Below are positions 16,671 to 56,527 of a DNA stretch of 64,000 nt, one piece after another. The position numbers were made by a program, and so were the translations under genes. How positions within the stretch are numbered: the stretch's first letter is position 1; each line of letters begins with the position of its first letter. The notes below the pieces were generated by a model. It did no database searches. It was not told the origin of the DNA and saw only the letters and a program-made list of their open reading frames with translations. Source of the stretch: a virus; the IMG/VR virus record IMGVR_UViG_3300035661_003606, positions 1-64,000 of that record; one strand, written 5' to 3'.

Positions 16671-16773
16671 TATAACAGCTAATTGTCGAGTCAATGGTCG
16701 CAGATTATGTAATATCACCAGTGCGTAGGGAATTAGAGACGTTTGCATCATTTGAGCAGAAAGGAACAGTCAA
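16671..16773 (+). repeat. Conserved RCC1 intergenic spacer, copy 2
   Basis: Same ordered strings as the spacer at 15620 (GTCGAGTCAATGGTCG, ATTAGAGACGTTTGCA, GAGCAGAAAGGA) directly before ATG 16774. Confidence 0.8.
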
Positions 16774-18801
16774 ATGAAATCATCCGAAATCGTAAAACTA
16801 CTCAATGACTCTTCAGTTGTAGCTGTTGTAAGTAGCGGCTCACATTCCCTCGCCTTGAAAAGTGACGGGACGGTCTTGGCGTGGGGGAGGAATTTTGACG
16901 GCCAACTCGGCAACGGGACTAGGGACGATAGCAATGTTCCCGTCCAAGTTTTGGGGCTGAGCGGAATTACGGCTATCGCAGCGGGCCATTCTCATTCCCT
17001 CGCCTTGAAAAACGACGGTACGGTCTGGGCGTGGGGTGCTAACTGGTCTGGCGAACTCGGCAACGGGACCAACACGTGTAGCAATGTCCCCGTCCAGGTT
17101 TCAGGGCTCACTGGCGTTACGGCTATCGCTGGAGGCTTTTGTCATTCCCTTGCCCTCAAAAGTGACGGGACAGTCTGGGCATGGGGTGATAATGGAGGCG
17201 GCCAACTCGGCAATGGGACCAACACATGGAGCAATGTCCCCGTTCAGGTTTCAGGTTTAACTGGAATTATGGCCATTGCGGGGGGCTGTTATCATTCCCT
17301 CGCCTTGAAAAATGACGGTACGGTCTGGGCCTGTGGGTATAATGGTTTCGGCGAACTCGGCAACGGGACCAACTCCGATAGCAGTCTCCCCGTCCAGGTT
17401 TCAGGGCTCACTGGGGTAACGGCCATCGCGGGGGGCTGGTCTCATTCCCTCGCCTTGAAAAACGACGGTACGGTCTGGGCATGGGGGTGGAATTACCTCG
17501 GCGCACTCGGCAACGGAACCTGGAACAGTAGCAATATCCCCGTCAAAGTTTCAGGACTTACGGGGCTCACTAAAATCGCGGGTGGCTATCTCCATTCCCT
17601 CGCCTTGAAAAACGACGGCACGGTCTGGGCCTGGGGGTGGAACGGTTGGGGCCAACTCGGCAACGGAACCAACACGTGTAGCAATGTCCCCGTCCAGGTT
17701 TCAGGGCTCACTGGCGTTACGGCTATCGCGGGAAGTTCTGGCCATTCCCTCGCATTAAAGAGTGACGGGACGGTCTTGGCCTGGGGATGTAATGATTACG
17801 GCCAACTTAGCAATGGGACCTACACTAATAGCAATATCCCCGTCCACGTTTTAGGGCTCACAGGGGTTACGGCCGTCGTGGAGGGCAGTAATCATTTCCT
17901 CGCCTTGAAAAATGACGGGACAGTTTGGGCCTGGGGTGATAATGAATACGGCCAGCTTGGCAACGGGACCAACACCGGTAGCAATGCCCCCGTTCAAGTT
18001 TTAGGGCTCACGGAGATCATTGCAATCGCGGCTGGAGATTATCATTCCCTCGCCCTGAAAAGTAACGGGACCGTCTGGGTCTGGGGGTGGAATTTTTACG
18101 GCCAACTCGGCAACGGGACCTACACTAGTAGCAATGTCCCCATCCAGATTTTGGGGTTCACTAGGGTTATTGCCATTGCTGGGGGCTATGACCATTCCCT
18201 CGCCTTAAAAAATGACGGTACGGTCTGGGCCTGGGGGCGTAATTATTGGGGTCAACTCGGCAATGAGACAACTATAGATAGCAATTACCCTGTTAAGGTC
18301 TCAGGGCTCACGAGGGTCACTAAAATCGCGGGAGCCCGTTGTCATTCCCTCGCATTGAAAAATGACGGGACGGTTTGGGCATGGGGGTATAACGATGACG
18401 GCGAACTCGGCAACGGGACCTACTCCCAGAGCAATCTCCCCGTCCAGGTTGCAGGGCTCACTGGCGTTACGGCCATCGTTGGGGGTAGTCGTCATTCCCT
18501 TGCCTTGCGGAATGACGGTACAGTCTGGACGTGGGGTAATAATGAATACGGCCAGCTTGGCAACGGGGCCAATGCCAATAGCAATCTCCCCGTCCAGGTT
18601 GCAGGGCTCACTAGCGTCACAGCTATCGCGGCGGGCTGGGCTCATTCCCTCACCTTGAAAAATGATGGGACGGTCTTGACCTGGGGATGGACTAATTACG
18701 GTCAATTTGACAACGGGGTTCGCATCAATAGCAAAATCCCTAACCAGTTTGACACACGAGCCAAACGTCAATTTGTTGTGCAATTGGAGTGGTCAAGTTG
18801 A
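16774..18801 (+). CDS. RCC1-repeat protein, 13 repeats
   Basis: 675 aa with 13 RCC1 units, close to two seven-bladed propellers. Unit 4 has WACG in place of WAWG; the last unit is diverged (WTNYGQFDNG) and leads into a unique basic tail (RAKRQFVVQLEWSS). Its length suggests fusion or expansion of the 7-repeat gene. Starts MKSSEIVKL after AGAAAGGAA. No secretion signal. Function unknown; a virion or host-surface binding role is possible. Confidence 0.85.
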   Translation: MKSSEIVKLLNDSSVVAVVSSGSHSLALKSDGTVLAWGRNFDGQLGNGTRDDSNVPVQVLGLSGITAIAAGHSHSLALKNDGTVWAWGANWSGELGNGTNTCSNVPVQVSGLTGVTAIAGGFCHSLALKSDGTVWAWGDNGGGQLGNGTNTWSNVPVQVSGLTGIMAIAGGCYHSLALKNDGTVWACGYNGFGELGNGTNSDSSLPVQVSGLTGVTAIAGGWSHSLALKNDGTVWAWGWNYLGALGNGTWNSSNIPVKVSGLTGLTKIAGGYLHSLALKNDGTVWAWGWNGWGQLGNGTNTCSNVPVQVSGLTGVTAIAGSSGHSLALKSDGTVLAWGCNDYGQLSNGTYTNSNIPVHVLGLTGVTAVVEGSNHFLALKNDGTVWAWGDNEYGQLGNGTNTGSNAPVQVLGLTEIIAIAAGDYHSLALKSNGTVWVWGWNFYGQLGNGTYTSSNVPIQILGFTRVIAIAGGYDHSLALKNDGTVWAWGRNYWGQLGNETTIDSNYPVKVSGLTRVTKIAGARCHSLALKNDGTVWAWGYNDDGELGNGTYSQSNLPVQVAGLTGVTAIVGGSRHSLALRNDGTVWTWGNNEYGQLGNGANANSNLPVQVAGLTSVTAIAAGWAHSLTLKNDGTVLTWGWTNYGQFDNGVRINSKIPNQFDTRAKRQFVVQLEWSS

Positions 18802-21977: not shown

Positions 21978-23495
21978 ATGGAACTGAAAAAACTAGGAAT
22001 ATATGGGTGTGAGGCCATTGAAGACCTCATAGCCGCATCTATTTTAACCGGAGATTCGGCTATGTTTATTGGCAGTGCTGGAACTGGCAAAACATTTATG
22101 CTAGAGAGACTGGCCGAAGCTCTCGATCTTAAGTTCATTGCCTATAATTGTTCATCTAATAATTTTGAAGATCTTATTGGATTTCCCATTCTGAATTCAG
22201 ATAAATCGGCGATGGACTTTATCCCTACCCCAACATCTATTTGGGGAGTTAACCTTGTTCTTCTTGATGAGATTAATAGGGCTAGGCTTGACATTCAGAA
22301 TCACTATTTTCAGCTCATTAGGAATCGTAGCATCCAGGGGAAGAAAGTAGATAGTCTTAAATGGGTTTTTGCCGCGATGAACCCATTGAGTTATGCAGGA
22401 ACTCAGCCGCTTGATAAAGCTCTCGCTGACCGTTTTGCTTGGGTTATCAGGACTCCTGCTTTTCATGTAATAAACGAGGAAGATAGACATAGTATTATAA
22501 GTAATATCACATGTGACGATGCTCCTGCTATGAGTCATTGGGGCTTTTCTAAGTCATTTAGCCGAGACGAGAAATTGACAGTTGAACTAAAGTCATATTT
22601 CAAAGCCGCAGCCGCCATTTACAATCAGTATCTTAACGATTGTAACGATGTGATCCAATATGTAGACGATTTTATTATTTCAGTTAACAATGCAAGCGGT
22701 TACTCTGGGACCATAGAGGGCCGCAGAGCGGGTATTCTCCTTCGCAACATCCTTTCTCTCGCGGCAGTTAGAGAGGCTAGTGGCTTACCTGGTGGCCTGG
22801 AAGCAGCAGCAGGTAAAGCTATTTTCCATTCGTTCATCAATGAAGCTGTTGATGAACCTATTCCAAACAAGGTACTTGAGACTGCCCATGAGAAGGCCAA
22901 GGTATATCTGCGTAAGTCCGCCTCGTCTATCATGGAGACTATTGAGCGTTTACCTTATTCAATTCAAAAAATAGCTAAGGGTATGAGATATAACATTGAT
23001 CCGGTAGTCTTGGGTGGATATATAAACGCCCACCTCTCGGAGATTAATTCGGACCCAATGGCGATGGAAGCTTTTGCTTTAGCCATTTGGCCATTTCTAA
23101 AAAATTCTAACGTTACCAATGATGCTCTTGCTTCTATAGCCAGCATAATTTCCATTATACTTTCTAACCAAGACTCGGACTTTTATCAGGATGTATCACT
23201 TAGAGAAGAAATAGATATTAAGACGTCGGGGGCACTTGAACTGAACCATATAATTGATTTGATAACTCCAAATCCCAAACAGAATTTTACTAATATATCT
23301 AACTTGCTTAATTCAAAAGATGTCTATGACGAGATATCTCACCGCCAAGGACTAAGACCAAAGTTGTCGTCCCATACAGACTTTTCAGCCGAAAAAGTGA
23401 GAGGAGCTAAGATGTTAAAGGCTTATATGTACGTGTTGTCCAATAACAATTTTACTCCAGATGTATTTGCCTCATCTCAACAGAAGGAGGTATAA
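21978..23495 (+). CDS. MoxR-family AAA+ ATPase, copy 2
   Basis: 505 aa, longer than copy 1. Walker A GSAGTGKT (32-39), LVLLDEIN (93-100), sensor-1 FAAMNPLSYAG and arginine finger region LADRFAWVI match the MoxR group. A C-terminal helical extension of about 200 residues is specific to this copy. AAGGAGG site. The next two genes follow with 0 and 4 bp gaps, forming a three-gene module. Confidence 0.88.
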   Translation: MELKKLGIYGCEAIEDLIAASILTGDSAMFIGSAGTGKTFMLERLAEALDLKFIAYNCSSNNFEDLIGFPILNSDKSAMDFIPTPTSIWGVNLVLLDEINRARLDIQNHYFQLIRNRSIQGKKVDSLKWVFAAMNPLSYAGTQPLDKALADRFAWVIRTPAFHVINEEDRHSIISNITCDDAPAMSHWGFSKSFSRDEKLTVELKSYFKAAAAIYNQYLNDCNDVIQYVDDFIISVNNASGYSGTIEGRRAGILLRNILSLAAVREASGLPGGLEAAAGKAIFHSFINEAVDEPIPNKVLETAHEKAKVYLRKSASSIMETIERLPYSIQKIAKGMRYNIDPVVLGGYINAHLSEINSDPMAMEAFALAIWPFLKNSNVTNDALASIASIISIILSNQDSDFYQDVSLREEIDIKTSGALELNHIIDLITPNPKQNFTNISNLLNSKDVYDEISHRQGLRPKLSSHTDFSAEKVRGAKMLKAYMYVLSNNNFTPDVFASSQQKEV

Positions 23496-24317
23496 ATGCT
23501 TAAGATAACCTGTTTTACTCCCAACAAAGACAAGGCAATGTTAGAAAACATTTTGCTACTTATAGAGTCTGAATCTGACGAGAAGCGCATAGCCATATTT
23601 AGAGAATTTAATGACTTCGGAGAGGTTCACTGTAAAGGCTGGCCCATTCTCAATCAAGAAGATTATGATAATTGTATGCTTATAGTTAAAAACCAAGGAC
23701 TTAATGAATCATTTGTGGTGGACAGTCCGGACTCTGAAAATGCTAACGTTATAACTAATATTTTCCGACATACTTTACTGCCTGGACCATTTCATAAAGT
23801 CATTTCCACTTCTATTGCAGCTGATTTTTGGAGTGCTGCACAGCTTCGTGCCAATAGACCACAAAGCTATGGCGAATCAGTTGATATTTTTACTTTCGAT
23901 GCACTAAAAGAAATGTGGAAATCTATTGGGAAAAGTGGATTTAGCAGTAAAAGTAAATCAGACTTATACGAGGGATTTGCTGAATCTGCAAGTGATATAG
24001 CCACTAGTCCAGAAAGCGAGGAATTCTGTAATCAACTTCCTGCTCGTATGATACAATTGGAAAATAACTATCATACTACTTATATGAAGCCCAATACTAC
24101 CATCATGTCTCCTACCAAGGTCTTAGCTCTCACCTCCAGAATATCTGGAAAAGTGCTCTATAACAAAGAGTCCTCGCCAGAGATTACTAATGATACAATT
24201 AGAAATAGACACATCATTGTAGACTTAATCGATCCATATAAAGATCCGATAGAAAGCGGTTTTACTACGGAGCAAGAAGCTCTGGCTGCTCTGACACCTA
24301 TTCCTCACAAGGAATAA
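23496..24317 (+). CDS. Hypothetical protein inside MoxR/VWA module 2
   Basis: 273 aa, starting immediately after the MoxR stop. Not recognised. It includes an acidic Ser-rich middle (SKSKSDLYEGFAESASDI). Modules 1 and 3 lack this gene, so it may adapt this copy to a different target; that is inference from position. Confidence 0.6.
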   Translation: MLKITCFTPNKDKAMLENILLLIESESDEKRIAIFREFNDFGEVHCKGWPILNQEDYDNCMLIVKNQGLNESFVVDSPDSENANVITNIFRHTLLPGPFHKVISTSIAADFWSAAQLRANRPQSYGESVDIFTFDALKEMWKSIGKSGFSSKSKSDLYEGFAESASDIATSPESEEFCNQLPARMIQLENNYHTTYMKPNTTIMSPTKVLALTSRISGKVLYNKESSPEITNDTIRNRHIIVDLIDPYKDPIESGFTTEQEALAALTPIPHKE

Positions 24318-24321
24318 ACAA

Positions 24322-25734
24322 ATGCCGGACAAGAAAGCATTCAATCCGGAAGAGTTTAGAAAAGATGTTATTAACGCTATGGGGGCCAACGCCCTAGCCA
24401 TGTCAAGCTTTGTAAGAGTAGCTGATATACAGTTTGACACTTCTGTCCCCACTGCCGCAATTTCTTTGGACGGTTTGCCTGTTATTCATGTTAACCCAGA
24501 CTTCGTGGAAAAATACGCTACTACCCCAGAACATAGATTTGTCCTTATCTACCATGAGCTACTGCATATGATACTTGGGCATGGTGTTAAAATCAAAGAC
24601 ATGTCAGACAATGTAATAGCCGATGCCCTTATCAATTCTATCATATGCTGCCAGTATCCTCAAGCTAGATATACTCGGTTCTTTACAAATTTTTACGACG
24701 CTAAGAAGTTTCCAGATAACATTTTAAGACCGTATTCCAAGTTCGATAAATTTACCCACCGGCAAAAGTACCGTAAGCTATATTCTTTTTCGGGTATGTC
24801 CTGGCAAGACTTAAGGCGCTGGTATGACGAAAACACTAAAGAAGCAGGCAAGCCCCTAGAAACCCCCACCCTTCTTGGAACTCACGGAAAGGCAAAGACC
24901 GAGGGCAGTGGAGAGGTCTTGCTTCCTATAGCCGATGGGATTCGTAAATCTATTGAAAACGCTATTCGAGAGGAAGTAGAAAAAGAGCAAAATAGGATCA
25001 GGCAGAAATACTATAGGAGAAGTAACCCAGACTTTAATAAAATGGAAAAGGAGTTACAAGAATGTACAGAGCAGGGTTTTTCAAATAGCGTTTTTCTTAG
25101 AGCCATTACGAGAATGACCGAGTCAGTTAGGAAGAAAAGTGCTATTGAAAAAGTTCTTCTTGCTCAGTCTAAACAAAGTCTTTCCTCTCGTGTTGAGACT
25201 GCTATCCGTGGGATGTTCCCCAAAATTCCACTCATGACCCCTATCCCTAATTTTAGAGATAGATATGCGATTGCCGCCCAACAAGCCGGGGTGTACCGTC
25301 CCTTCTATAAGAACCCATTACTACCGAGAGATTATGGGGCGTGTAGCATTTATGTTGATGTCTCTGAAAGTATGGGTAATTATATGCGGCTAGTATATAA
25401 AGTTGCCGTTGATTGCAAGGATTATCTAGACGATAAAATCTTTTTATTCTCTAATGTTATTGAGCCAATCACTAAAAATGAACTATTAAAGGGAGTTGTT
25501 AAAAGCACAGGAGGGACTGACTTTAACATAATTATATCTCACATGGAGAAAAACAAAATTAAAAAGGCAGTTTTGTTCACCGACGGGTGGGCAGGGATAA
25601 ATAAGGATGGTCTTAGGTCCATAGAAAAGCACGGTTTAAGTATTATCTGTGTTCTAACTCCTCACGGGACAGAAGCCAATGTTAAGAAAATGTCTAAGCA
25701 AATTATAAAGATTGAGGAAGGAGACATTAAATGA
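24322..25734 (+). CDS. HExxH metallopeptidase-like plus VWA protein, copy 2
   Basis: 470 aa. HELLHMILGH (78-87) repeats the HExxHx4H pattern of copies 1 and 3. A long charged helical middle (about 205-250) precedes the VWA domain with MIDAS residues DVSES (about 346), STGGTDF and FTDGW. The Gly to Glu change in DxSxS spacing (DVSES) keeps Asp, Ser, Ser. Probably partners the MoxR ATPase at 21978. Confidence 0.85.
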   Translation: MPDKKAFNPEEFRKDVINAMGANALAMSSFVRVADIQFDTSVPTAAISLDGLPVIHVNPDFVEKYATTPEHRFVLIYHELLHMILGHGVKIKDMSDNVIADALINSIICCQYPQARYTRFFTNFYDAKKFPDNILRPYSKFDKFTHRQKYRKLYSFSGMSWQDLRRWYDENTKEAGKPLETPTLLGTHGKAKTEGSGEVLLPIADGIRKSIENAIREEVEKEQNRIRQKYYRRSNPDFNKMEKELQECTEQGFSNSVFLRAITRMTESVRKKSAIEKVLLAQSKQSLSSRVETAIRGMFPKIPLMTPIPNFRDRYAIAAQQAGVYRPFYKNPLLPRDYGACSIYVDVSESMGNYMRLVYKVAVDCKDYLDDKIFLFSNVIEPITKNELLKGVVKSTGGTDFNIIISHMEKNKIKKAVLFTDGWAGINKDGLRSIEKHGLSIICVLTPHGTEANVKKMSKQIIKIEEGDIK

Positions 25735-31182: not shown

Positions 31183-32265
31183 ATGTTAAAAAATATTAAA
31201 GAGTTTCTTACCTCTACCAACAATAACTTAGTGGAAGTTGTCAGTTGTAGAGAAGGACCGTTAAGCACAGAAATAATTTTAAAACTTCTAGATTACAAGA
31301 AGGTGGGGCTAGTAGAAAAAAGTCTCGAAGGATTATCTTTTTTCCTTCAAGCGTCTTCTCATATTTTAATTCCGGACCCACTTTGTGGGGGCTTTAGACT
31401 AATTATCCCAGTAGATAATATTAAATCTATACCTTTTAACGAGAAAAAAATAATTAGACCTACCCAAATATTTTTAGGAATAGACGACAGAGGCGCGGAT
31501 CTGACACTATATTTAAGCGATATAACCCACACTCTTATAGCGGGAGCAACTGGATCTGGAAAGTCTATGTGTATTCACACTATTATCCATTCTCTTCTAG
31601 TCAAACAGGGCGTTAGTATAGTTTATTTGGACCCCAAAAGAGTGGAGAGCCAGCTATATAGTGGAATAGCAAATTCTAGTATCATGCGGATTGCCTCTAC
31701 GAATGAGGACATATTGAAAGAGTTAACTATGATCCATAGCTGGATGGAAGATAGGTATCAATATATGGCTAATCACCATATCCGAGATGCCATGTCTAAA
31801 TGGCTAGAGAATCACGATGAGAACCTAAAACCTATGGTTTTAATTTGCGACGAAGTCGGGGGTATATTTTCTGGAATTCCTGCAGCAAAAAACATTTTGC
31901 TGTCCTTGTCATCTCGATCTAGAGCAGCGGGACTTAGGATCTTTTTAGCCACCCAACGTCCAGACGCCAAGATTATTGACGGAGCCATTAAGGCAAACTT
32001 TACCACGAGAATATGTTTTAAAACAAGCTCTAAGATAGATTCATACGTTATCCTTGGTTTCGGAGGAGGAGAACATTTAAAGGGCAAAGGACATGGTATC
32101 CTTCTCGGCAATGATAATAGTATTACCACATTTAAGGGAGCTGTAATAGAAGGCATCAGACTAAGTAAATATAGCACTACAAATACATATTGTCCTGCGG
32201 CTGCGGCTCCTGTTGTGCTTGACTCCATTGGAGAAAACCTGGGCCAGCTAAAAAAGCTAAAATAG
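31183..32265 (+). CDS. FtsK/HerA-like DNA-translocase ATPase
   Basis: 360 aa. Walker A GATGSGKS (121-128), YLDPKR, Walker B MVLICDEVGG (Asp223, Glu224) and FLATQRPDAKIIDG, RICFKTSS form an FtsK/SpoIIIE motor domain. There is no transmembrane domain and no C-terminal gamma domain. It could translocate phage DNA during segregation or packaging or strip proteins from DNA. GGAGA site. Confidence 0.85.
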   Translation: MLKNIKEFLTSTNNNLVEVVSCREGPLSTEIILKLLDYKKVGLVEKSLEGLSFFLQASSHILIPDPLCGGFRLIIPVDNIKSIPFNEKKIIRPTQIFLGIDDRGADLTLYLSDITHTLIAGATGSGKSMCIHTIIHSLLVKQGVSIVYLDPKRVESQLYSGIANSSIMRIASTNEDILKELTMIHSWMEDRYQYMANHHIRDAMSKWLENHDENLKPMVLICDEVGGIFSGIPAAKNILLSLSSRSRAAGLRIFLATQRPDAKIIDGAIKANFTTRICFKTSSKIDSYVILGFGGGEHLKGKGHGILLGNDNSITTFKGAVIEGIRLSKYSTTNTYCPAAAAPVVLDSIGENLGQLKKLK

Positions 32266-35813: not shown

Positions 35814-35828
35814 GTGATGGAGGCAAAA

Positions 35829-36218
35829 ATGATTAGTACTGAAGACAGTGTAAGAACATTCTTGGAGTGTATGTCGATAAGTCCCACCGGTGACGCCGAG
35901 CAAGACAACAAACTTCAAGAGATATTAAAGAAAAGTATTTATGACTTATGCTTTGTGATGGTTCCAGACGTTGATTCTTTAGTGAGTGAGAAAGGAGTAT
36001 TTACACCATCTTCTATTGAGCATGGAGCAGTAATGAAGGCCTTCTTTAGCGAACAACGTAAGGTTATCTTTTCTGTTTTTAGTGGAATAGCTAAACTTAA
36101 GGAACAAGGTGAAAAGGACAAAGCTGAACTTAGAAATGAGATTCAAAATTTAAGAGAAGAGATTGCTAGAATGGGAACTAGAATGAAAGCCATAATGAAG
36201 AATCAACTCACATCTTAG
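35829..36218 (+). CDS. Hypothetical protein with coiled-coil tail
   Basis: 129 aa from ATG 35829 with TGGAGG 5 bp upstream. Helical; the last 40 residues (KDKAELRNEIQNLREEIARM) form a clear coiled coil. It lies at the edge of the repeat-rich region at 36239 and could bind it as an initiator or partition protein, but no DNA-binding motif is visible. Confidence 0.6.
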   Translation: MISTEDSVRTFLECMSISPTGDAEQDNKLQEILKKSIYDLCFVMVPDVDSLVSEKGVFTPSSIEHGAVMKAFFSEQRKVIFSVFSGIAKLKEQGEKDKAELRNEIQNLREEIARMGTRMKAIMKNQLTS

Positions 36219-36238
36219 TGGTTGGCATGGAAATTGCT

Positions 36239-36420
36239 CGCGCGTGCGCGCGCGTATTATTAAATAATATAATAATATTATAATAATATAATACGACTCA
36301 ATTGAGGTTTACAATTGAGGGCATCATATGAGAGACAACAATTAAGGCAAACATATTGAGGCAAACATATTGAGACAAATATATTGAGGCAAATATATTG
36401 AGGCAAACATATTGAGGCAG
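36239..36420 (+). other. Candidate replication origin or partition site (Z-DNA-like, AT-rich, iterons)
   Basis: Inside the only gap over 400 bp (36219-36619). In order: 16 bp of alternating CG/TG (36239-36254); 39 bp of only A and T (36255-36293); TTGAGG at 36302 and 36315; then six copies of a TTGAGG-type core at 36342, 36356, 36370, 36384, 36398 and 36412, exactly 14 bp apart, with AGGCAAACATATTG as the typical unit (AAATAT in two). GC block, melting AT block and iterons are the usual parts of an iteron origin; a centromere-like site is the alternative. The rest of the gap up to 36619 is AT-rich with no clear signal. Confidence 0.65.
36289..36307 (+). promoter_or_regulatory. T7-promoter-like sequence
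   Basis: TAATACGACTCA (36289-36300) equals positions -17 to -6 of the T7 RNA polymerase promoter; the following ATTGAGG matches 4 of the next 7 consensus bases (-5 to +2). It lies between the AT block and the iterons. No T7-type RNA polymerase gene is in this window, so function is uncertain and chance is possible in such AT-rich DNA. Confidence 0.25.
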
Positions 36421-36619
36421 ATAAATAGTGACATTATTAAATTATTTGGCATATTGTGCTGCAATGATATTATTATCTTTTGCAAATAAGAGGTGTATGT
36501 TGTTATATGTATTTAACTATTTCTCTAAATAATTTCTTTATAAGAATTGTTTTAAAAACATTACGGGAATTTTAAAAATACATCTGGAAATCAGAGTAAG
36601 TTGAAGAAAAGGAGAAAAC

Positions 36620-36943
36620 ATGATAAATTTAATCGGAATCCTTCTGGGCGCCATTTCTACCGAAGCAACTGTAAAAGTTCTTCTTAGAGGGGCTATTTTT
36701 GAAGTTCCTAGAAATTGGATTTATTCTAAAATCTCAGAAAATAACTTCTTTGGTAAATTAATCAGATGTCCGTATTGTTTGTCTTTTTGGGTGTCGGCTA
36801 TATTGGTAGGTGCGTATCTTTTGTCTCTGGATCTGTTTTGGTTATATGTATCTTGGACATGTATCTGTCGCTTAAGTAATATTGCCCACGACATTTCAGA
36901 TAAAATTTATTATTCGCAATACGGAACTGGGACAGAAAAATAA
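36620..36943 (+). CDS. DUF1360-like small membrane protein
   Basis: 107 aa. RCPYCLSFWVSAILVGAYLL matches the CPxCLxFWV signature of DUF1360 proteins. Three hydrophobic segments (about 2-24, 55-75, 78-95). Its location suggests the inner membrane. Function unknown. AAAGGAG site. Confidence 0.7.
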   Translation: MINLIGILLGAISTEATVKVLLRGAIFEVPRNWIYSKISENNFFGKLIRCPYCLSFWVSAILVGAYLLSLDLFWLYVSWTCICRLSNIAHDISDKIYYSQYGTGTEK

Positions 36944-37394: not shown

Positions 37395-38819
37395 ATGATA
37401 ACTGATAATAAGTTAAAGTTTTGGATCGAAAACGGTCAAAATGTTTTATTCGTTGGCAAACATGGAGTTGGTAAGACAGCGAGAGTTATTGAGGCTTTTA
37501 ACGAGGCTAAGCTAAATTGGCTGTATTTTAGCGCCTCAACTCTTGATCCCTGGGTAGATTTCATTGGTATTCCAAAAGAAGTGAAGGATAATCATGGTAA
37601 CTCATATATAGATCTTGTAAGACCTAAACCATTTGCTGAAGATACCGTAGAGGCAATATTTCTAGACGAATATAATCGATCTCCAAAGAAAGTCCGAAAT
37701 GCAGTAATGGAACTAATTCAGTTTAAGTCTATCAACGGGAAAAAATTCAAAAATCTAAAGATCATCTGGGCGGCCATCAACCCTGAAGACGAAGAAGAAG
37801 AGGGTGCAAACGGCGGATACGATGTTGAGAAATTGGACCCAGCTCAGAAAGATAGGTTTCACGTCATTGTGAATGTTCCGTATAAGCCCGACAGAAGTTT
37901 CTTTGTTAATAAATATGGAAAAGCTATTGCTGATAGCGCTATAAATTGGTGGACTTCTTTAGACAAGAAGGGGAAAGATAGCGTCTCTCCTAGAAGACTT
38001 GATTATGCTATAGATCTTTACACTAAAAAAGGAGACATGAGAGATGTCTTACCAAGTAACGTCAATGTGACTAAACTATTTCGAGAGTTAGGTAGTGAAG
38101 ATATTAAGGACACTTTAGCTAATCTATACAGTACACAAGATGTCTCAGCTACAAAAAAGTTTCTTTCCTCTAGAAATAACATTGATATTATGCTTAAAAC
38201 TTTAGAGGAAAATGCTAATTACAGGGACTTTTTCCTACCTCTTATGGGTGAAGAGGATCTGGCTAAAATAATAACGGAAAGTAAGTCAATATACCAATAT
38301 GTCATTACCAGTGGCAAGTTTGATAATACAATTGCAGAAATTAAGAAAACTGGATCAAAGTTAGCTAAAACCATCGCTAACGATACTCTAGCTCTCAGTT
38401 ATACCTTTTCTCATAAGCTGCTAGATTCTCTGCCTTCTTTGCCAATGGTCAATAAGTACAAGCTAGGCGGAAAAAGTCTCTATGATACGCTGCATGCCTC
38501 TCTAGGTCTAATGAACAATACATACTATAGGGTGTTTGCAGTAGACGTTGCTATTCTAAACTTACAACCAACAGACGATAAGAAAACATTCGAAATGGTG
38601 ACGAATGTATTGCAAATACTATTCAATCAATCTATCCCGTCAACTATTTTTAATATCAAGCACTTAGATCGTCTTTTGGGCTTTGTCATTAAAAAAGTTA
38701 GCGCATTTCACGGAAAAACACCCGACAAAGAATTTATGGATTTTCGCTTAAAACTTACACCCACAGGACAGAAAAGACTAAACTTGTTCTTAACCAAATT
38801 CGGGAGCTTGTATGCCTAA
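37395..38819 (+). CDS. MoxR-family AAA+ ATPase, copy 3
   Basis: 474 aa. Walker A GKHGVGKT (21-28), AIFLDEYNRS (Asp91, Glu92), sensor-1 WAAINPEDEE and DRFHVIVNV follow the MoxR order. More diverged than copies 1 and 2. Overlaps the VWA-3 start by 8 bp, so the pair is tightly coupled. GAAAGGAAT site. Confidence 0.85.
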   Translation: MITDNKLKFWIENGQNVLFVGKHGVGKTARVIEAFNEAKLNWLYFSASTLDPWVDFIGIPKEVKDNHGNSYIDLVRPKPFAEDTVEAIFLDEYNRSPKKVRNAVMELIQFKSINGKKFKNLKIIWAAINPEDEEEEGANGGYDVEKLDPAQKDRFHVIVNVPYKPDRSFFVNKYGKAIADSAINWWTSLDKKGKDSVSPRRLDYAIDLYTKKGDMRDVLPSNVNVTKLFRELGSEDIKDTLANLYSTQDVSATKKFLSSRNNIDIMLKTLEENANYRDFFLPLMGEEDLAKIITESKSIYQYVITSGKFDNTIAEIKKTGSKLAKTIANDTLALSYTFSHKLLDSLPSLPMVNKYKLGGKSLYDTLHASLGLMNNTYYRVFAVDVAILNLQPTDDKKTFEMVTNVLQILFNQSIPSTIFNIKHLDRLLGFVIKKVSAFHGKTPDKEFMDFRLKLTPTGQKRLNLFLTKFGSLYA

Positions 38820-40131
38820 AATGGAAGATACTATAAACCTATCAACCGAAGAGTTTGCAGAGATTGCTAGAGGCCTAGAGATTCATCATGCGATATTTTC
38901 TGTTTTATGGAACCTAGGCAAGCCAGTATTCACTAACTTGGTTCAAACGGCAGCTGTAGCCTTTGATGAGCAAGGCAAGTCTATTGTGTTTTATTTCAAT
39001 CCGGTTTTTTGGAAGAAGCTTTCCGACTATGAAAGAAATTTTATTATTTGCCACGAATGTCTTCATGTGGCCCTTGGTCACGGTGTCAGGCTAAGGGCTA
39101 TTACTGATTCTTCTCACGATCCTAACATAGCGGCTGACATTGTTGTCAATAATATGCTTATAAAATCTATGGGATTTGACCGAAGTAAGCTTTCTATGGC
39201 GGATGACTTATGCTGGATTGATACGATTTTCAAGCATTCTGAGAAGGTGGAGAAGGATAGATGTCTGGAGTATTATTACAATATACTGCATAAAAATGCA
39301 GAAAAAGAAGCTAGTGGATTAGGAGTGGGGTCAGGAGTTGGGTCTATAGATAGTCATGATGGGATAAAAGATTTAGATCAAGGCGCTCTCGATGATTTAA
39401 CTGATAACGCTATGGGAGGCTTAAACCAGGATGATCTTAAATCCTTTTCTGAAAAGGTTAGCCAATATAAAGAAGAACTAGATGCTGGAGATATTTGTGC
39501 CGGACGGACAGCTGGCACTATAGCAGGAAGGCTTACTCAAGTTGTTAAGCTAACAGAAGTTGTCACCAAAAAGAAATGGGAGACGGTTATTAGAAAATGG
39601 GCAAGACAACACATTAAAGACTCCAGCAAAGATTTTGAACAGTGGGCTAGGACCAACAGAAGGTTTAGTGACATTATTGCAGCGTCTAATTTATTTTTAC
39701 CGTCGGAGATGGAAATAGACCAGCGAGAGCAGGAACTAAGTAAAATAAAAGTGGTTTTCTTCCAAGATACTTCTGGTTCATGCTCTCATTTTGCTAAAAG
39801 ATTTTTTACTGCAGCCTCTAGCTTACCAAAAGATAAATTCGATGTAGAGCTATACTGCTTTGATACGGAAGTATATAAGACGTCCTTAGATAGCGGAAAG
39901 TTATATGGTTTTGGCGGCACTTCATTTAGAATATTAGAAAACTATGTTCGGTATAAAATATCCAATAATGACCCTAAGAAATATCCAAAGGCCATTTTTG
40001 TTATCACGGATGGATATGGGGACAATATCTCACCTCAGTTTCCTCAGAATTGGTATTGGTTCCTGTCATCTGATAATAGAAGTTGTATTCCTTCTGCGTG
40101 TAATATTTTTAAGCTTTCAGATTTTGAATAG
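38812..40131 (+). CDS. HExxH metallopeptidase-like plus VWA protein, copy 3
   Basis: 439 aa. HECLHVALGH (81-90) repeats the HExxHx4H motif; a Gly/Asp-rich linker (about 165-200) precedes the VWA domain with DTSGS (about 319), FGGTSF and ITDGYG. The T of the MIDAS site is kept. Partner of the MoxR ATPase at 37395. Followed directly by a phage promoter. Confidence 0.85.
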   Translation: MPKMEDTINLSTEEFAEIARGLEIHHAIFSVLWNLGKPVFTNLVQTAAVAFDEQGKSIVFYFNPVFWKKLSDYERNFIICHECLHVALGHGVRLRAITDSSHDPNIAADIVVNNMLIKSMGFDRSKLSMADDLCWIDTIFKHSEKVEKDRCLEYYYNILHKNAEKEASGLGVGSGVGSIDSHDGIKDLDQGALDDLTDNAMGGLNQDDLKSFSEKVSQYKEELDAGDICAGRTAGTIAGRLTQVVKLTEVVTKKKWETVIRKWARQHIKDSSKDFEQWARTNRRFSDIIAASNLFLPSEMEIDQREQELSKIKVVFFQDTSGSCSHFAKRFFTAASSLPKDKFDVELYCFDTEVYKTSLDSGKLYGFGGTSFRILENYVRYKISNNDPKKYPKAIFVITDGYGDNISPQFPQNWYWFLSSDNRSCIPSACNIFKLSDFE

Positions 40132-40138
40132 TTGGGCA

Positions 40139-40167
40139 TTGACTTTTAGCCTTAATAGTGTTATATT
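40139..40167 (+). promoter_or_regulatory. Phage promoter TTGACTTTTA-N-TATATT
   Basis: TTGACT (40139-40144), 17-bp spacer, TATATT (40162-40167), 24 bp before the bS21 start codon. Gives bS21 its own short-leader transcript. Confidence 0.88.
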
Positions 40168-40190
40168 ATTTTGACGGAGGTTGTACAAAT

Positions 40191-40412
40191 ATGGCAAAGG
40201 TATATCTAAGGGACAAGGAACCTATTGAAAGAGCGCTAAAGCGCTTCAGCGTTGCAGTAGCTAAAGATGGAATTCTAAGAGAGTTAAAGCTTAGGAAGTA
40301 TTACTTAACTGAAAATCAACGCAGGAGACTCAAAAAAGAAGAAGCTCGCAAGAGATTTATGAAGAATCTTAAGAAAAAGCTTCTTAAGGAAGCTACGTCT
40401 AACGGAAGATAA
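40191..40412 (+). CDS. rpsU: Ribosomal protein bS21
   Basis: 73 aa from ATG 40191 with GGAGG 10 bp upstream; an earlier ATG lies inside the -10 box and is excluded. MAKVYLRDKEPIERALKRF and AVAKDGILRELKLRKYYL, then a Lys/Arg-rich helix, match bS21. This small 30S protein sits near the anti-Shine-Dalgarno region and exchanges easily. Phage copies are known from huge phages and are thought to bias host ribosomes toward phage mRNA. Confidence 0.9.
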   Translation: MAKVYLRDKEPIERALKRFSVAVAKDGILRELKLRKYYLTENQRRRLKKEEARKRFMKNLKKKLLKEATSNGR

Positions 40413-40579
40413 TGCCAAAGAGAATAGAGGAAATAAAGATTAGATTTGCTAATGCTAGGATGGCTATTGACGCCCTTCCGATTGATGCAGATGTAAAGGA
40501 GCAGTTGAAGAAGATTATGACTTCTCACTTGAGGACGATTATTTCATATGCAGAAAACACCGAAGAAAAGCAAAATTAA
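40412..40579 (+). CDS. Small hypothetical protein coupled to bS21
   Basis: 55 aa, starting in a TAATG overlap with the bS21 stop and overlapping the primase gene by 32 bp. Sequence PKRIEEIKIRFANARMAIDA, then a second helix; all-helical and not recognised. Same transcript as bS21, so perhaps linked to translation. Confidence 0.5.
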   Translation: MPKRIEEIKIRFANARMAIDALPIDADVKEQLKKIMTSHLRTIISYAENTEEKQN

Positions 40580-41213
40580 CAAACAGCTTGTAGATAAAAT
40601 TAAAAATAAAATTGACATTCTAAAGTTGGTTGAAGATTTAGGCTTTAGCGTAGTTAAATCATCTAACGATCGATGGGTTATGTGTTGCCTCTTCCATGAG
40701 GAAAGAACCCCGAGTATGACGCTTTATAAAGACTCTAATAGTTTTTATTGCTATGGCTGTACTGAAAGTGGTGATGTAATAACCCTATTACAGAAGGCTA
40801 AGGGGCTCTCATTTGTTGAGGCTGTTAAATTCTTAGCAAAGAGAGGCGGAATTGATGTTGAATCTTCAAATGAAGAAACCTTCCATTGGGAAGGTTCAGA
40901 TGAATACTCTGAAGAGCCCGGTACCGAGCTCGACTACGAAGATATATTTACTTTTGTTGCCATGGAGACGAGAAAGTTGATAGAACAAATCAAAGATGTT
41001 TACTCAACAGACTCCGTGGAGTTTAATGAGGCTGTGTCTTCGATGGAGAGTATTTACCAGAAGTTTGATAACACTGACGTTTCTGGCGTAAAAATGTTAG
41101 CGCTCTCTCAGCTAGAAGGCTTAGCCAACGAGCTTAGGGAGACTTTAAATGAAAGTAGGGGTCATCGGGGACATTCATATGGGGGCATCTTACCACTTTG
41201 GACACACACTTAA
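40548..41213 (+). CDS. Primase zinc-finger (CHC2) protein
   Basis: 221 aa. Residues 18-100 match the DnaG N-terminus: IDILKLVEDLGFSVV, CCLFHEERTPSM and FYCYGCTESGDVITLLQ, a CHC2 zinc finger, then FVEAVKFLAKRGGIDVE. The chain then becomes acidic and helical instead of entering a Toprim core. The Toprim part is a separate gene at 62563, 22 kb away. The C-terminus overlaps sbcD by 65 bp. Confidence 0.8.
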   Translation: MQKTPKKSKINKQLVDKIKNKIDILKLVEDLGFSVVKSSNDRWVMCCLFHEERTPSMTLYKDSNSFYCYGCTESGDVITLLQKAKGLSFVEAVKFLAKRGGIDVESSNEETFHWEGSDEYSEEPGTELDYEDIFTFVAMETRKLIEQIKDVYSTDSVEFNEAVSSMESIYQKFDNTDVSGVKMLALSQLEGLANELRETLNESRGHRGHSYGGILPLWTHT

Positions 41214-49936: not shown

Positions 49937-51631
49937 ATGTCTAAGCTTGTTATTGCAAAATATAAGTCTAAAAAGAAACTTGATACTGGCACTATAGTGT
50001 ACGAATATAGTGAGGCAGATAAAAAGAAACGGGCTAAGAAAAAAGCCCAACATGTTAGAAAGGTGTTTCAGAATATATCCAAAATTAAGAATGCCTTTGA
50101 AAAAGACATGAAGTCCAGTGATAAGAAATTACAAATGGTAGCTCTAGCTGTGGGTATTATTTATGAGATTTTTGAGAGGGTTGGAGATAGGGGCAATATA
50201 GGAACTGGGGTTGTCTCCCTTAAAAAGAAACACATTACGGTTCATGGAGATAAGGTTCATTTTAAGTATGTAGGAAAATCGTACGTTAAGCAGGACAAAA
50301 CTTTAACGAATTCGACTATGGCTAAATTAATCAAAGAGAACTTAGAGGGAAAGGGAGACAATGAGTATTTGTTTGACTTTGAAGATGAGAGTGGGAAGAA
50401 GATAAGTATTCTCTCAGACGATATCAACGAATATTTAAAGCCATTTCATATTACAGCTAAAGACCTTCGGGCGCATGCGGCCAATGATATTCTTATTTCA
50501 AAACTTAAGGCAGCTGAGAAGGCTAAAGGAGAGACTAGTGAAGAAAAAGAAAAATGGCGCAAAGACAAACTTAAAGAACTTATTGAGGAAACTGCAGATG
50601 AGATAGGGCATACCCCAGAGATCTGTAGGTCGTCGTATATTGATCCCTCTTTAATTGAGGAATATATTTCCAGTGGAAAGATAATAAAGCTGACGGCTGA
50701 TCAAAATTTGACGGTGATGATTAAGCTGGCTAACATTAAGGAGCATCCTAAAGTTAAAGAATTTTTGACTAGAGGAGTAACGCCAGAGGAGCAGGCTATT
50801 ATAGATAGCCCCTCCCAAGTTAGATCTGAAATTTCGGACTCAGCCTTCACTAAAGCTCTAGAAAAAGCAAAGGCGGAGGGGGCCTTAGCTGGTCTTTTAG
50901 ATATAGTCGAAGATAATGATGAGTCTGCTTTTGGAGTAACTCCCATTATAGTGGGTGGTAAGGCAATTCCTATTATCGGTGTAAATATAAATAAAATTAA
51001 GTCAGAGGCGGCTAAAGGCAAACCTATAGAGGAAATTTTATCAGAACAGGTTAAACAGATATTAGGAGTAATTGCCCACGAGCAAGCTCATGTTGAAGGA
51101 CAAGGAGAGGCTGAAGCAGAGAGAGTTCAGAAAGAAAGAGTGGAAAAAATAGAAAGGGACACGACCGCAGATACGTCGGCGCCTATTTTACGTTTGGCGT
51201 CTGAAGAGAAGACGTTATTTCAAAAGCTTGGAGTTGATGGGGTTGACAGAGATAATCTTTTAAAAGTTACAAATAATGTCCTAAAAAAGATAGGTATTCC
51301 AAACACCAATCAAAATATAGGTCTATTAGCTCTAGGATATCTGTTATCTTTAGGTAATAATCCATATAGAGCAGAGTGGAACATACGAAAGGCTATAGGA
51401 TTAGAAACTCCAATCGATATCAAAGATGCAACTATTGTATATAATATTCTTAATAGTGCTTTTCAAGAGGCTTCGATAAAAGAGGATAAGCAAGAGGATT
51501 TCTATTCTTTTTCAGATGAAGATAAAATGAATTTGGGGGATATTGATTCCTTAAAATGGGAATCAGAGCCTTCTTACTCTCCTGGGACTGGTATGGGGTT
51601 CTATCCTCAAGTACACCCATTCAACTATTAA
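49937..51631 (+). CDS. Type IB topoisomerase with C-terminal HEQAH-bearing extension
   Basis: 564 aa. Residues 1-250 match TopoIB cores: RVGD (Arg81), GKSYV (Lys114), AKDLRAHAA (Arg178), GHTPE (His225) and CRSSYIDP (Tyr234), the full catalytic set. It relaxes supercoils through a 3'-phosphotyrosine. After residue 250 a new region contains AHEQAHVEGQGEAEAE (HExxH at 380-384), a zinc-peptidase-like motif, and a Tyr/Pro-rich tail (YSPGTGMGFYPQVHPF). The join is seen in one frame with no sign of error. Confidence 0.85.
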   Translation: MSKLVIAKYKSKKKLDTGTIVYEYSEADKKKRAKKKAQHVRKVFQNISKIKNAFEKDMKSSDKKLQMVALAVGIIYEIFERVGDRGNIGTGVVSLKKKHITVHGDKVHFKYVGKSYVKQDKTLTNSTMAKLIKENLEGKGDNEYLFDFEDESGKKISILSDDINEYLKPFHITAKDLRAHAANDILISKLKAAEKAKGETSEEKEKWRKDKLKELIEETADEIGHTPEICRSSYIDPSLIEEYISSGKIIKLTADQNLTVMIKLANIKEHPKVKEFLTRGVTPEEQAIIDSPSQVRSEISDSAFTKALEKAKAEGALAGLLDIVEDNDESAFGVTPIIVGGKAIPIIGVNINKIKSEAAKGKPIEEILSEQVKQILGVIAHEQAHVEGQGEAEAERVQKERVEKIERDTTADTSAPILRLASEEKTLFQKLGVDGVDRDNLLKVTNNVLKKIGIPNTNQNIGLLALGYLLSLGNNPYRAEWNIRKAIGLETPIDIKDATIVYNILNSAFQEASIKEDKQEDFYSFSDEDKMNLGDIDSLKWESEPSYSPGTGMGFYPQVHPFNY

Positions 51632-52467: not shown

Positions 52468-53105
52468 CACCAGAAGAAAAAATAGAAGCTCTTATTAAGT
52501 TAAATGCTGACTGTCACAAATGTACAAAGTGTAGTCTATATACTAACGTACCTCCAATTCCGGGTTGGCAAAAAGGGCCGCATGTTTTTGGGGCCGGGAA
52601 AGTCTCAAGTAAAATTATGATTGTGGGGCAGAACCCAGGGATTAAAGAAGTTCAGCAACAAAGGCCATTTGTGGGCCCAGCCGGAGAGAAGCTCAATGAG
52701 GCAATATCTAGCGTTGGATTGAACAGACGGGATTTGTATATTACTAACTCTGTTCTATGCTATACGATAGGAAACTCCGTGCCGCCAATAGAAAGTATTT
52801 GGGCATGTAGAGACTTCCTGGTGGAGCAAATAAAGATTGTGGAGCCAGAAGTAGTGGTTTGTTGTGGAGCTAGTGCGTTTAGGTCTTTTAAGAGCAAGTT
52901 TCAGTATTCCACTGCTTTCTGTAAGTCGCCTACGGTAATAGAGACGGACATACATCCTAGGGTTATTGCTACTGTTCATCCTGCATATGTTATATATAAA
53001 CATGAAGAGGCTATGGAAATTCTAAAAGCTGGCCTTATGAGAGCTAAAACATTCTTGGAGGAAAGTTATGAAGACTATGCATCATGCAATGCCGCAGCCC
53101 TATAA
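52464..53105 (+). CDS. Uracil-DNA glycosylase, family 4/5-like
   Basis: 213 aa. Four iron-sulfur Cys (17, 20, 99, 115), motif GQNPG (55-59), RPFVGPAGEKL and TVHPAY. It removes uracil from DNA to start base-excision repair, or possibly destroys uracil-containing host or rival DNA. GQNPG replaces the usual GEAPG, so the catalytic acid differs. Overlaps neighbours on both sides. Confidence 0.85.
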   Translation: MTPEEKIEALIKLNADCHKCTKCSLYTNVPPIPGWQKGPHVFGAGKVSSKIMIVGQNPGIKEVQQQRPFVGPAGEKLNEAISSVGLNRRDLYITNSVLCYTIGNSVPPIESIWACRDFLVEQIKIVEPEVVVCCGASAFRSFKSKFQYSTAFCKSPTVIETDIHPRVIATVHPAYVIYKHEEAMEILKAGLMRAKTFLEESYEDYASCNAAAL

Positions 53106-54351
53106 AGTTATAGTAGAGCTAGACGATAAAGAGGTAAAGTCTGCCCTACATGAGTTTTGGGTGTCTAAGGGTCCAACCCTTATGAAAGAGACGCCTGGCT
53201 CTTGGACTAAAATTGCAGCCTTAAGAGAGCATTTGGAGAAGCAAGAGGGACATAAGCTATACTGGGATATGATATGGAATTGGGTAGAAGAGGGGCTCAA
53301 AAAAGTACCGCTTAAGATTCATCGGATTATAAAAATTAGTATAGATAAGTTTGATGAGAAGCTTGGAGCAATTATTTCTACAGAGGTTGATTTGATTCCT
53401 AGTGTTAAGTTGGGGGATTACAAAAATATTAAACTCCAGGTACCTTCATTTAAGCCTCTTCCTAAAGAGGTCGAGGGGCAGATTATTCTAGCCTTAAACC
53501 ATTCTCCGCTTGCTACTACTCAAGAGCTACATCAGCAGATTAAGCCTGGGGATACAGTTAAGATGTCATATACAATTTCCAGAGCGGATGATAACACTGT
53601 ACTTCAAGTTAGCGAGAACGACATGATCAATTTGTCTTCTGGGGCTTATGCCACAGAGTTTGTCGATGCAATTGTAGGAGAATATGCTCCTTCGACTTTT
53701 ACTAAAGTGATTCATTTTCCAGACAATTATCAACATGAAATTCTTCGGGGAGTGGATGTTAATTTAAAAGCTGAAATTTTTGCAGTTATTAAAAAGATTC
53801 TGCCAACTGAAGAGGAAGAAGCGGCAAGAGAGGGACTTTCTTTAGAGCAGTGGAAATTGAAATTCTGGACAGATATCGAGAAAAATAAGAAGGAGTCCTT
53901 TGAAATTAGAAAGAGAGACTTTATTCGGCAGGGGGTAGAAAAACATCTCTTGACCACTTCAGAAATTAGCCCTATTCCAGATAGTATGATAGAGAATGAG
54001 ACTAAAGCGTTGATGGAAAATCTAGCAAGAGTCAAGGGGATGACAGTGAGTGAGTATGCAGCGGATATGAAGATGACCGAGGAGTCTCTCTTTGCGGAGT
54101 TAGCTTACTTAGCAGTAAGAAGGCTTATGGTGAGGTTAATAGTTGAGGCTATTTGTGAAGCTGAAGGGATTGTTGTTGACGAAAAGAATACCGAAGAATA
54201 TTTGACTAAATATGCTGCCGAGAAGGGAGAATCTTTAGACAAAGTAAAAGCAGATGTTGGAGATAAGGATATCTCTTTTCTAGTTAAGTCTTATTTGGTA
54301 GATGAATTGTTAAATAATAGTGTAACGCTTGTTCATCCAACGGATGGATGA
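53068..54351 (+). CDS. tig: Trigger factor-like chaperone
   Basis: 427 aa, near trigger factor length. A middle FKBP-like domain (IKPGDTVKMSYTISRADDN, VDVNLKAEIFAVIKKILP) is followed by the long helical arm region (EGLSLEQWKLKFWTDIEKNK). SVKLGDYKNIKLQVP matches the start of the PPIase linker in bacterial proteins. The ribosome-docking GFRxGxxP signature is not found; ETPGSWTKI stands there. It may fold phage proteins off the ribosome or dock differently. Confidence 0.8.
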   Translation: MKTMHHAMPQPYKVIVELDDKEVKSALHEFWVSKGPTLMKETPGSWTKIAALREHLEKQEGHKLYWDMIWNWVEEGLKKVPLKIHRIIKISIDKFDEKLGAIISTEVDLIPSVKLGDYKNIKLQVPSFKPLPKEVEGQIILALNHSPLATTQELHQQIKPGDTVKMSYTISRADDNTVLQVSENDMINLSSGAYATEFVDAIVGEYAPSTFTKVIHFPDNYQHEILRGVDVNLKAEIFAVIKKILPTEEEEAAREGLSLEQWKLKFWTDIEKNKKESFEIRKRDFIRQGVEKHLLTTSEISPIPDSMIENETKALMENLARVKGMTVSEYAADMKMTEESLFAELAYLAVRRLMVRLIVEAICEAEGIVVDEKNTEEYLTKYAAEKGESLDKVKADVGDKDISFLVKSYLVDELLNNSVTLVHPTDG

Positions 54352-54460: not shown

Positions 54461-54489
54461 TTGACTTTTTTACGGTAGTGTTTTATATT
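54461..54489 (+). promoter_or_regulatory. Phage promoter TTGACTTTTT-N-TATATT
   Basis: TTGACT (54461-54466), 17-bp spacer, TATATT (54484-54489). Drives the DnaE genes from ATG 54535. Confidence 0.88.
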
Positions 54490-54534
54490 TCTTATGTAGT
54501 GGCTATAGGTCAGAAAGGTTGGTGGCGTTGTATA

Positions 54535-55434
54535 ATGTTTGCAAACTTACATACCCATACCGACTATTCCGTGTTAGACGGAATGATGACGGTTGGGAAA
54601 GCTTTTGAGAAAGCAAAACAAAATAACTATTCAGCATTGGCCATTACAGAACATGCGAACTTATCTTCATTGTATATAGCTCTTCAAGCTGCTGAAAAAT
54701 ACGAGCTTAAGTTTATTCCTGGTATAGAGTTTAATTTTGCAGATGATACTAGTGACGAAAAAGGATATCACCTAGTAGCTCTAGCCACTAACCATAGTGG
54801 GCTACTCTCTATTATGAGAGTTTCTTATAGGGCTTACTTCAGAGACTACAAGTTTCCATATATAACTTGGGAAGACTTAGACTTATTGGACAGAAACGGA
54901 GTTTATATTTTATCCGGGTGCGAAGAAGGGCTTCTAGCTAGGAAAACCTTATTTTTTGGTCCTCAACGAGGGGGACAGATAGTAGATAGGTTCTCCTCTA
55001 TGTTTGGAGACAGGTTCTTTGTAGAATTAATTGCTCCTTATAATGATAGACAAAATGATATCAATGGCATTCTTTTGAATTTAGCTAAACAAAAGGGGGT
55101 AGCAACCGTTATGACGCTGGATAGTCACTATGCTGACGAGGTAGATGCAGAGCTATTCCCCGTGTTTCAAGCAATACAATCTAAAAGAACTATTTTTGAT
55201 AGAGATAAGTTTTACGATAGAGCTCCACTTATCACTGAGGAAACATTAAGGAGTATGTGTGGAGCAGAATTTTCATCTTCAATAGACCATGCCGCTATAT
55301 TAGCTGATAAATGTGAAGACTCTAAGAATTATTTGCCGAAAGCAAGTGAGTTTTTAATGCCTAAGTTTAATGTCCAAGAGGCAGATAACTATGAGGCATT
55401 TAAGGAGTGGAGGAAGAAGACCTATGGAGCGTAG
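54535..55434 (+). CDS. dnaE: DNA polymerase III alpha, part 1: PHP domain
   Basis: 299 aa from ATG 54535; upstream frames lie before the predicted transcript start. FANLHTHTDYSVLDG, LAITEHANLS, PGIEFNF, GCEEGLLAR and MTLDSHYADEVDAE are the PHP metal motifs of bacterial DnaE. The gene ends at the PHP/polymerase border and overlaps part 2 by 11 bp in another frame. The PHP domain may proofread or bind other subunits. Confidence 0.9.
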   Translation: MFANLHTHTDYSVLDGMMTVGKAFEKAKQNNYSALAITEHANLSSLYIALQAAEKYELKFIPGIEFNFADDTSDEKGYHLVALATNHSGLLSIMRVSYRAYFRDYKFPYITWEDLDLLDRNGVYILSGCEEGLLARKTLFFGPQRGGQIVDRFSSMFGDRFFVELIAPYNDRQNDINGILLNLAKQKGVATVMTLDSHYADEVDAELFPVFQAIQSKRTIFDRDKFYDRAPLITEETLRSMCGAEFSSSIDHAAILADKCEDSKNYLPKASEFLMPKFNVQEADNYEAFKEWRKKTYGA

Positions 55435-56527
55435 TGATAGTCATGACTATCTTACTTTTCTTTGCGTTCAGGGCTGGGAGAAGAAGATTGCTCCATTAAA
55501 TTTACCCGAAGAAAAAATACTCGAATATGCGCGCAGACTTAACCATGAATTGCAGATGATTCATCTGGCTAATCTGGATGATTACCTGCTTATTGTATAC
55601 GATATCCTAAGATATTGTGATGAGCGTGGTATTCAGAGGGGGGTGGGGCGTGGAAGCTCAGGAGGTTGTTTGATTGCTTATTTAATTAATATTACTCATA
55701 TTGATAGCGTTAAATATGGCTGTCTTTTTTCTAGGTTTTTTAATATAGGCCGTTTGCAAACTGGTAATTTGGCTGACATCGATGTTGATATCGATCCTCG
55801 ATATATTAACGATGTTATTGGGTATATCAAAAGAAAATATGGGTCTGATAAGGTGGCGGCCATTTCAACTGTTGTCAAGTTGTTTGGTAAGTCAGCCATT
55901 AAAGATGTTGCTAGGGCTTTGGCCATTGGGGAAGGTGGGACCGGCAAAGCCGAAAATAAGAAGGAGATATTTTCTTTAAGCAATCGTATTACCTCTTTTT
56001 TCCCAGATGACCCAAAGGCCACTGTAGCCTCCTCCGTAAATGAGTCTAAAGAATTACAGAAATATAAAGATCGATTCCCAGAGTTGTTTGAAAAGGCAAC
56101 CAAGCTAGAGGGATTGGTTAGGTCCAACTCTATTCATGCTTGCGGTATGACGATTGCTAGTGTTCCATTGATTGAATATTTGCCAATGAAACTCTGTAAA
56201 GTCCGAGGAGAAGATGATTCTACATTAAAAGAAGAGGATTCTACATTAAAAGAAGACGATAGCATTGCAGCAGATGAGGTGGATCAGGGACAGCAAGCTC
56301 AATTAAGAGAAGTTGTTGATGTCGATATGAAGGTTTTAGAGTCTAGGAAGTTTTTAAAGTTTGATTTTTTAAAACTTAAAACGTTATCTGTTATAAGAGA
56401 TACCTTAGATATGATTAAGCGGAATCATAATAAAACTATTATCCTCCAAGATTTGAGTTTAGATGATGAGGAAGTTTATAAATATATGTGGAATGCCCCA
56501 AATCTTCTGGGTATTTTTCAGTTTTAA
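55424..56527 (+). CDS. dnaE: DNA polymerase III alpha, part 2: palm with catalytic Asp
   Basis: 367 aa from ATG 55424. GVGRGSSGGCLIAYLINITH and ADIDVDID (Asp120, Asp122) and LKFDFLKLKTLSVI (third Asp) supply the three catalytic aspartates of family C polymerases. An acidic insert with a 21-bp tandem repeat (DSTLKEE) lies just before the third Asp. The frame ends NLLGIFQF-stop; the family continues with Glu here, and part 3 follows in the same frame. Confidence 0.88.
   Translation: MERSDSHDYLTFLCVQGWEKKIAPLNLPEEKILEYARRLNHELQMIHLANLDDYLLIVYDILRYCDERGIQRGVGRGSSGGCLIAYLINITHIDSVKYGCLFSRFFNIGRLQTGNLADIDVDIDPRYINDVIGYIKRKYGSDKVAAISTVVKLFGKSAIKDVARALAIGEGGTGKAENKKEIFSLSNRITSFFPDDPKATVASSVNESKELQKYKDRFPELFEKATKLEGLVRSNSIHACGMTIASVPLIEYLPMKLCKVRGEDDSTLKEEDSTLKEDDSIAADEVDQGQQAQLREVVDVDMKVLESRKFLKFDFLKLKTLSVIRDTLDMIKRNHNKTIILQDLSLDDEEVYKYMWNAPNLLGIFQF

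Follow-up and report, generated by a model that had tools for sequence, protein, structure and literature searches.

Replication origins that combine an array of initiator-binding repeats with easily opened DNA are the closest described systems to the locus studied here. In the origin of phage lambda, the iterons adjoin a 40-bp A+T-rich opening region, and iterons are usually arranged in helical phase (PMC5043065); classic iterons measure 17-22 bp (PMC4980987). Until now, coverage trends and GC skew have been the grounds for suspecting origins in huge phages (PMC7162821), and a literature search combining jumbo phages, iterons and replication origin gave no result. Here we describe an intergenic element of 400 bp, located at 36219-36619 of the window (the whole stretch of 64,000 nucleotides that was analysed), which probably, though far from certainly, is the replication origin of its phage, or the main one, and would be of the iteron type with a putative initiator. 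It is a sharply bounded, single-copy and conserved origin candidate, and its defined repeat unit of 14 bp makes the question of huge-phage origins testable.

The window comprises bases 1-64000 of a virus record of 70,756 bp (G000), and nearly all of its genes lie on the plus strand. G000 is collinear with the region 231-308 kb of a longer record, IMGVR_UViG_3300024999_000030 (332,730 bp; G001), at ∼70-80% DNA identity. The two contig ends of G001 share an exact overlap of 126 bp, which suggests a circular or closed genome. Since the window is collinear with this apparently closed genome of 332.7 kb, it is very probably a fragment of a huge phage genome. Another record, IMGVR_UViG_3300025015_000017 (G002), is identical to G001 across the 14 kb compared, and the two therefore count as one independent relative of the window's phage. 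A DNA search with the element and its surroundings (4 kb) against the INPHARED phages gave no match. When IMG/VR was scanned for the pattern of palindrome and repeats, we obtained 45 matches, among which the array was present in G001 and G002 only; the others look like chance or unrelated repeats. Scanning for two repeat units gave none in IMG/VR and six matches in the GTDB genomes, one exact match each, which we took as chance. Distant relatives detected through PhoH (∼29-34% identity) yielded no intermediate relative, and the closest of them (L078) has no comparable array. The window also has a gene for ribosomal protein S21 (40158-40412), a protein known from huge phages and helpful for host assignment.

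Next, we checked the anatomy of the element letter by letter, and every feature of the preliminary description was found at its position. The element lies between an upstream ORF of 134 aa (35814-36218, plus strand), which has no family match and whose predicted structure is mostly helical at low confidence (pLDDT 53.5), and a downstream ORF of the DUF1360 family (36620-36943, plus strand; Pfam PF07098). It begins with a conserved box, TTGGCATGGAAATTGCT (36222-36238, plus strand), near-identical at the G001 locus and placed immediately 5′ of a CG-rich tract of alternating purines and pyrimidines. This tract, earlier given as 16 bp of alternating CG, starts with CGCGCGTGCGCGCGCG at 36239-36254, which contains a single T; the purine/pyrimidine alternation continues perfectly through 36257, giving 19 bp (36239-36257). 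Its 6-bp GC arms and 4-nt loop can form a hairpin, not followed by a T run, and the tract has the potential to adopt Z-DNA or a cruciform. The pure A/T block occupies exactly the 39 bp announced for it (36255-36293); it has the lowest duplex stability and is the putative unwinding element. It is the longest A/T run in the window, where the next one is 20 bp, and the longest run in 100 shuffles was 31 bp.

Beyond the A/T block, we observed a feature absent from the preliminary description, the palindrome CTCAATTGAG (36297-36306), in which two repeat cores stand head to head and which may be a dimer site; its counterpart in G001 is CCTCAATTGAGG. The two related cores noted earlier, at 36302 and 36315, both read TTGAGG. 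The second of them, within CAATTGAGG (36312-36320, plus strand), lies 13 bp past the first and is kept in G001. Then follows the array of 14-bp direct repeats with the consensus ATTGAGGCAAAYAT (36328-36425, plus strand), consisting of six units, or seven with a degenerate one. The exact 14-bp spacing of its six cores was borne out: these are TTAAGG at 36342, TTGAGG at 36356, TTGAGA at 36370 and TTGAGG at 36384, 36398 and 36412, so that the cores at 36342 and 36370 are one-base variants, still within the wording 'TTGAGG-type'. An additional degenerate core, ATGAGAG, stands in phase at 36328. The self-match at lag 14 was 62 of 70 positions, against a maximum of 42 in 2000 dinucleotide shuffles of the region and of 40 in whole-window shuffles; the periodicity at 14 bp was matched by none of the 2000 shuffles, and TRF reported a period of 14 with 6.0 copies and a score of 131. 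The periodicity of the array far exceeds chance.

The remainder of the element contains a second conserved non-coding block, TTTCTTTATAAGAA...ACATTACGGGAA...CAGAGTAAGTTG (36500-36605, plus strand), found by alignment with G001; it probably serves the downstream operon as promoter and leader, and its RNA fold is unremarkable. RNA folding of the region is likewise nothing special (z −1.4), which disfavours an RNA element; Rfam also gave no match for the region. Folded as a DNA strand, the region surpasses its shuffles, with z −3.5 in the window and −5.6 at the G001 locus.

We then compared the element with its counterpart in G001, which, like the 400-bp intergenic extent, had not been part of the preliminary description. 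The counterpart lies between the same two genes (orthologs of the upstream and downstream ORFs are 74% and 71% identical, respectively), and both phages share the order of box, CG tract, A/T block, palindrome, second core, 14-bp repeats, variable spacer and leader-like block. The number of repeats is about 6-7 in G000 versus about 4-5 in the shorter orthologous array of G001 (273,660-273,727). Among the 13 syntenic intergenic regions of G000 and G001, the element is the most conserved, with 75% identity over 410/377 bp; the next best showed 67% over 128 bp, then 61% and 55%.

The order of features had been described as unlike anything else in the window, and this held true for the A/T run, the CG tract and the repeats, and extended beyond the window. 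Of all 40-bp windows in the 70,756 bp of G000, the one with the lowest stability is the A/T block, and its counterpart likewise ranks lowest in G001. The CG tract is the sole GC-rich alternating tract (at least 14 bp and at least 60% GC) in G000, as is a 19-bp counterpart in G001. Besides its array, G001 (332.7 kb) has no clear short-period tandem array in non-coding DNA; the other array matches outside plus-strand ORFs were either two weak ones (units of 11-12 bp, 2-3 copies) or belonged to minus-strand genes at 160-164 kb. The case for an origin rests most firmly on the occurrence of three genome-unique features within ∼190 bp.

The element heads the replication gene cluster; the first clear replication gene downstream, at a distance of 4 kb, encodes the CHC2 zinc-finger part of a DnaG-type primase (40548-41213, plus strand; Pfam PF01807). 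The downstream genes further include those for SbcD, SbcC, an exonuclease, a type IB topoisomerase, Pol III alpha, an SSB-like protein, RuvC, UvsX and the catalytic part of the primase; in G001, a DnaB-type helicase is encoded at 120 kb.

Several side observations concern other genes of the window. The DnaG-type primase appears to be split, its CHC2 part (40548-41213) and catalytic part (62542-63384) being ORFs 21 kb apart, each with a separate ortholog in G001. Pol III alpha extends across three consecutive ORFs (54478-57994); the last two are fused in G001 (851 aa), and the first split is common to both phages. Three paralogous pairs, each with a DUF2201/phrog_1314 protein after a MoxR-like AAA ATPase, occur at 11284-13688, 21978-25734 and 37395-40131, and one of these pairs comes directly after the element. 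An FtsK/SpoIIIE-like DNA translocase gene (31183-32265) lies 4 kb upstream of the element and has its ortholog in the matching relative place in G001. The topoisomerase, of eukaryotic type (IB), and a trigger-factor chaperone are encoded at 49937-51631 and 53068-54351. Genes of RCC1-repeat proteins, one of 675 aa with at least 12 repeats, occupy 14474-18801 within an island of ∼50-55% GC; the richness in GC of this island, within a genome of 38-42% GC, suggests its recent acquisition.

A change in GC skew had been proposed as a check of the origin, and its outcome differed between the two phages. The raw GC skew is positive nearly throughout and is uninformative because the genes run on one strand; therefore, we measured skew at the fourfold-degenerate sites of plus-strand genes. 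In G000, this skew was −0.19 to the left and +0.15 to the right of the element, which is the sign expected on either side of a bidirectional origin. The best split lies near 41 kb, with a two-unit support interval (34.9-43.5 kb) that includes the element, and was matched by none of 2000 gene permutations. However, no GC-skew switch marks the element in G001 (p 0.20), nor does the circle as a whole show a pattern of two replichores. The A/T skew of G001 has its best split beside the element in the range 237-312 kb (p 0.0045), but over the wider range of 190-332 kb the best split was not significant. In G000, the composition switch coincides with an operon boundary, so expression-related codon bias is an alternative cause of it. 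We consider the skew evidence as supportive, not decisive.

The same boundary introduces the main rival to an origin, namely that the element is the operator/promoter region of the replication operon, where a phage regulator would bind the palindrome and the repeats and thereby turn the downstream genes on or off. In this reading, the upstream transcript would end at the CG hairpin, and the A/T block would belong to the promoter or to an upstream element. Operators commonly consist of a palindrome plus half-site repeats, and the position of the element between two transcription units, with a conserved leader-like block after it, agrees with such a function, as do the promoter-like matches in the region (28, versus 17 in shuffles) and the presence of two phage sigma-like genes. 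However, no similar operator was found elsewhere: outside the array, the 14-mer has no match at fewer than two mismatches in the window, and only a single scattered copy, with one mismatch, in G001. The CG hairpin without a T run also differs from the clear terminator at 113.3 kb of G001, and an operator would have no need for the least stable DNA of the genome alongside it. Regulation as the whole explanation therefore appears rather unlikely to us. In several plasmids, origin and operator are a single site, and by analogy they may be one and the same site at this element.

The preliminary description had also offered a partition site, and this alternative proved to be the weaker one. We searched G000, G001 and G002 for ParA (PF13614) and ParB (PF02195) and found no match. 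G001 does encode a tubulin of 434 aa (111,800-113,104; L064:11800-13104), whose best PDB matches are TubZ (E 2e-21) and whose closest solved relatives are the TubZ proteins of Bacillus plasmids, not the PhuZ group of Pseudomonas phages. The element could thus be imagined as a tubC-like centromere of a type III tubulin partition system for moving the phage DNA; tubC sites are direct-repeat clusters at a single locus (PMC5016525), and TubZ partition has been described for a phage (PMC7950403). But tubC sits upstream of its own operon, whereas the tubulin gene of G001 is 161 kb from the array, in a region that the G000 fragment excludes, and no TubR-like gene or repeat cluster was recognised beside it. 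An A/T unwinding block, moreover, is not a component of a centromere. Taken together, a centromere seems quite improbable.

A site of packaging initiation (pac), bound by the small terminase subunit, would be another way to account for repeats at a single locus. Small terminases bind repeated sites, and the overlap between the ends of G001 fits a genome that is circularly permuted and packaged by the headful. But a pac site is usually found within or close to the gene of the small terminase; the small terminase was not located, and the large terminase and portal genes of G001 are ∼51 kb from the array. We regard packaging as a highly improbable function of the element.

We return to the origin as the preferred reading. 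A search for the Rep_3 initiator (PF01051) at E ≤ 1 gave no match in G000, G001 or G002; the search for a DnaA relative gave only a weak and short domain match below threshold, and no DnaA box TTATNCACA within one mismatch, an optional feature of iteron origins, was present in 36219-36619. The element has tandem short direct repeats in non-coding DNA and an adjacent, easily melted A+T-rich region, as iteron origins do. However, with a spacing of exactly 14 bp the repeats are shorter than iterons of 17-22 bp and lack helical phasing, although a set of three units spans 42 bp, or about four helix turns. Because of the repeat length and helical phase and the missing Rep_3 initiator, we do not file the element as a Rep_3-type iteron replicon. 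By analogy, it appears on balance to work like an iteron origin, though not as a Rep_3-type iteron plasmid replicon. The earlier description of the order as classic for iteron origins thus stands in part: the conserved order, the least stable DNA, the unique array, the placement at the replication cluster and the sign change of skew in G000 agree with it, while the lack of a skew flip in G001, of a known initiator or DnaA box and of a repeat of usual length and phase does not.

In the mechanism that we propose for the origin, a phage-encoded initiator would bind as a dimer to the palindrome CTCAATTGAG and as a cooperative array to the direct ATTGAGGCAAAYAT units. Rep dimers of iteron plasmids bind a palindromic operator, which the same-core palindrome of the element resembles. 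The strain from initiator binding, perhaps aided by the neighbouring CG tract, would open the 39-bp A/T block, where the DnaB-type helicase, the primase and the Pol III-type polymerase of the phage would then load. We also considered a bolder version, which is decidedly unlikely as a whole: an origin class proper to a huge-phage lineage, in which a Z-DNA-prone CG tract would be coupled to the A/T unwinding block and a new initiator family would bind one palindrome and a 14-bp array on three helix faces, the site possibly doubling as a docking site for the phage tubulin.

Compared with known systems, the element is unlike tubC in that the array lies apart from the tubulin gene, no TubR was recognised and a putative A/T unwinding block is present; it is like tubC, with its TubR and TubZ, in being a direct-repeat cluster at a single locus in a phage whose relative G001 has a TubZ-like tubulin. 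The iterons of lambda, located within the O gene, are inverted-repeat units of 19 bp, whereas the element has intergenic direct units of 14 bp, and no O relative was identified. It nevertheless resembles ori-lambda, with the iterons of the O protein, in having an array of putative initiator-binding repeats directly beside an A+T-rich region of ∼40 bp in an early replication region (PMC5043065). From the iteron plasmids, whose repeats measure 17-22 bp (PMC4980987) and are usually phased (PMC5043065), the element differs by its 14-bp unit and by having neither Rep_3 nor a DnaA box; with F, P1, R6K, RK2 and pPS10 it shares the combination of direct repeats and an A/T unwinding element.
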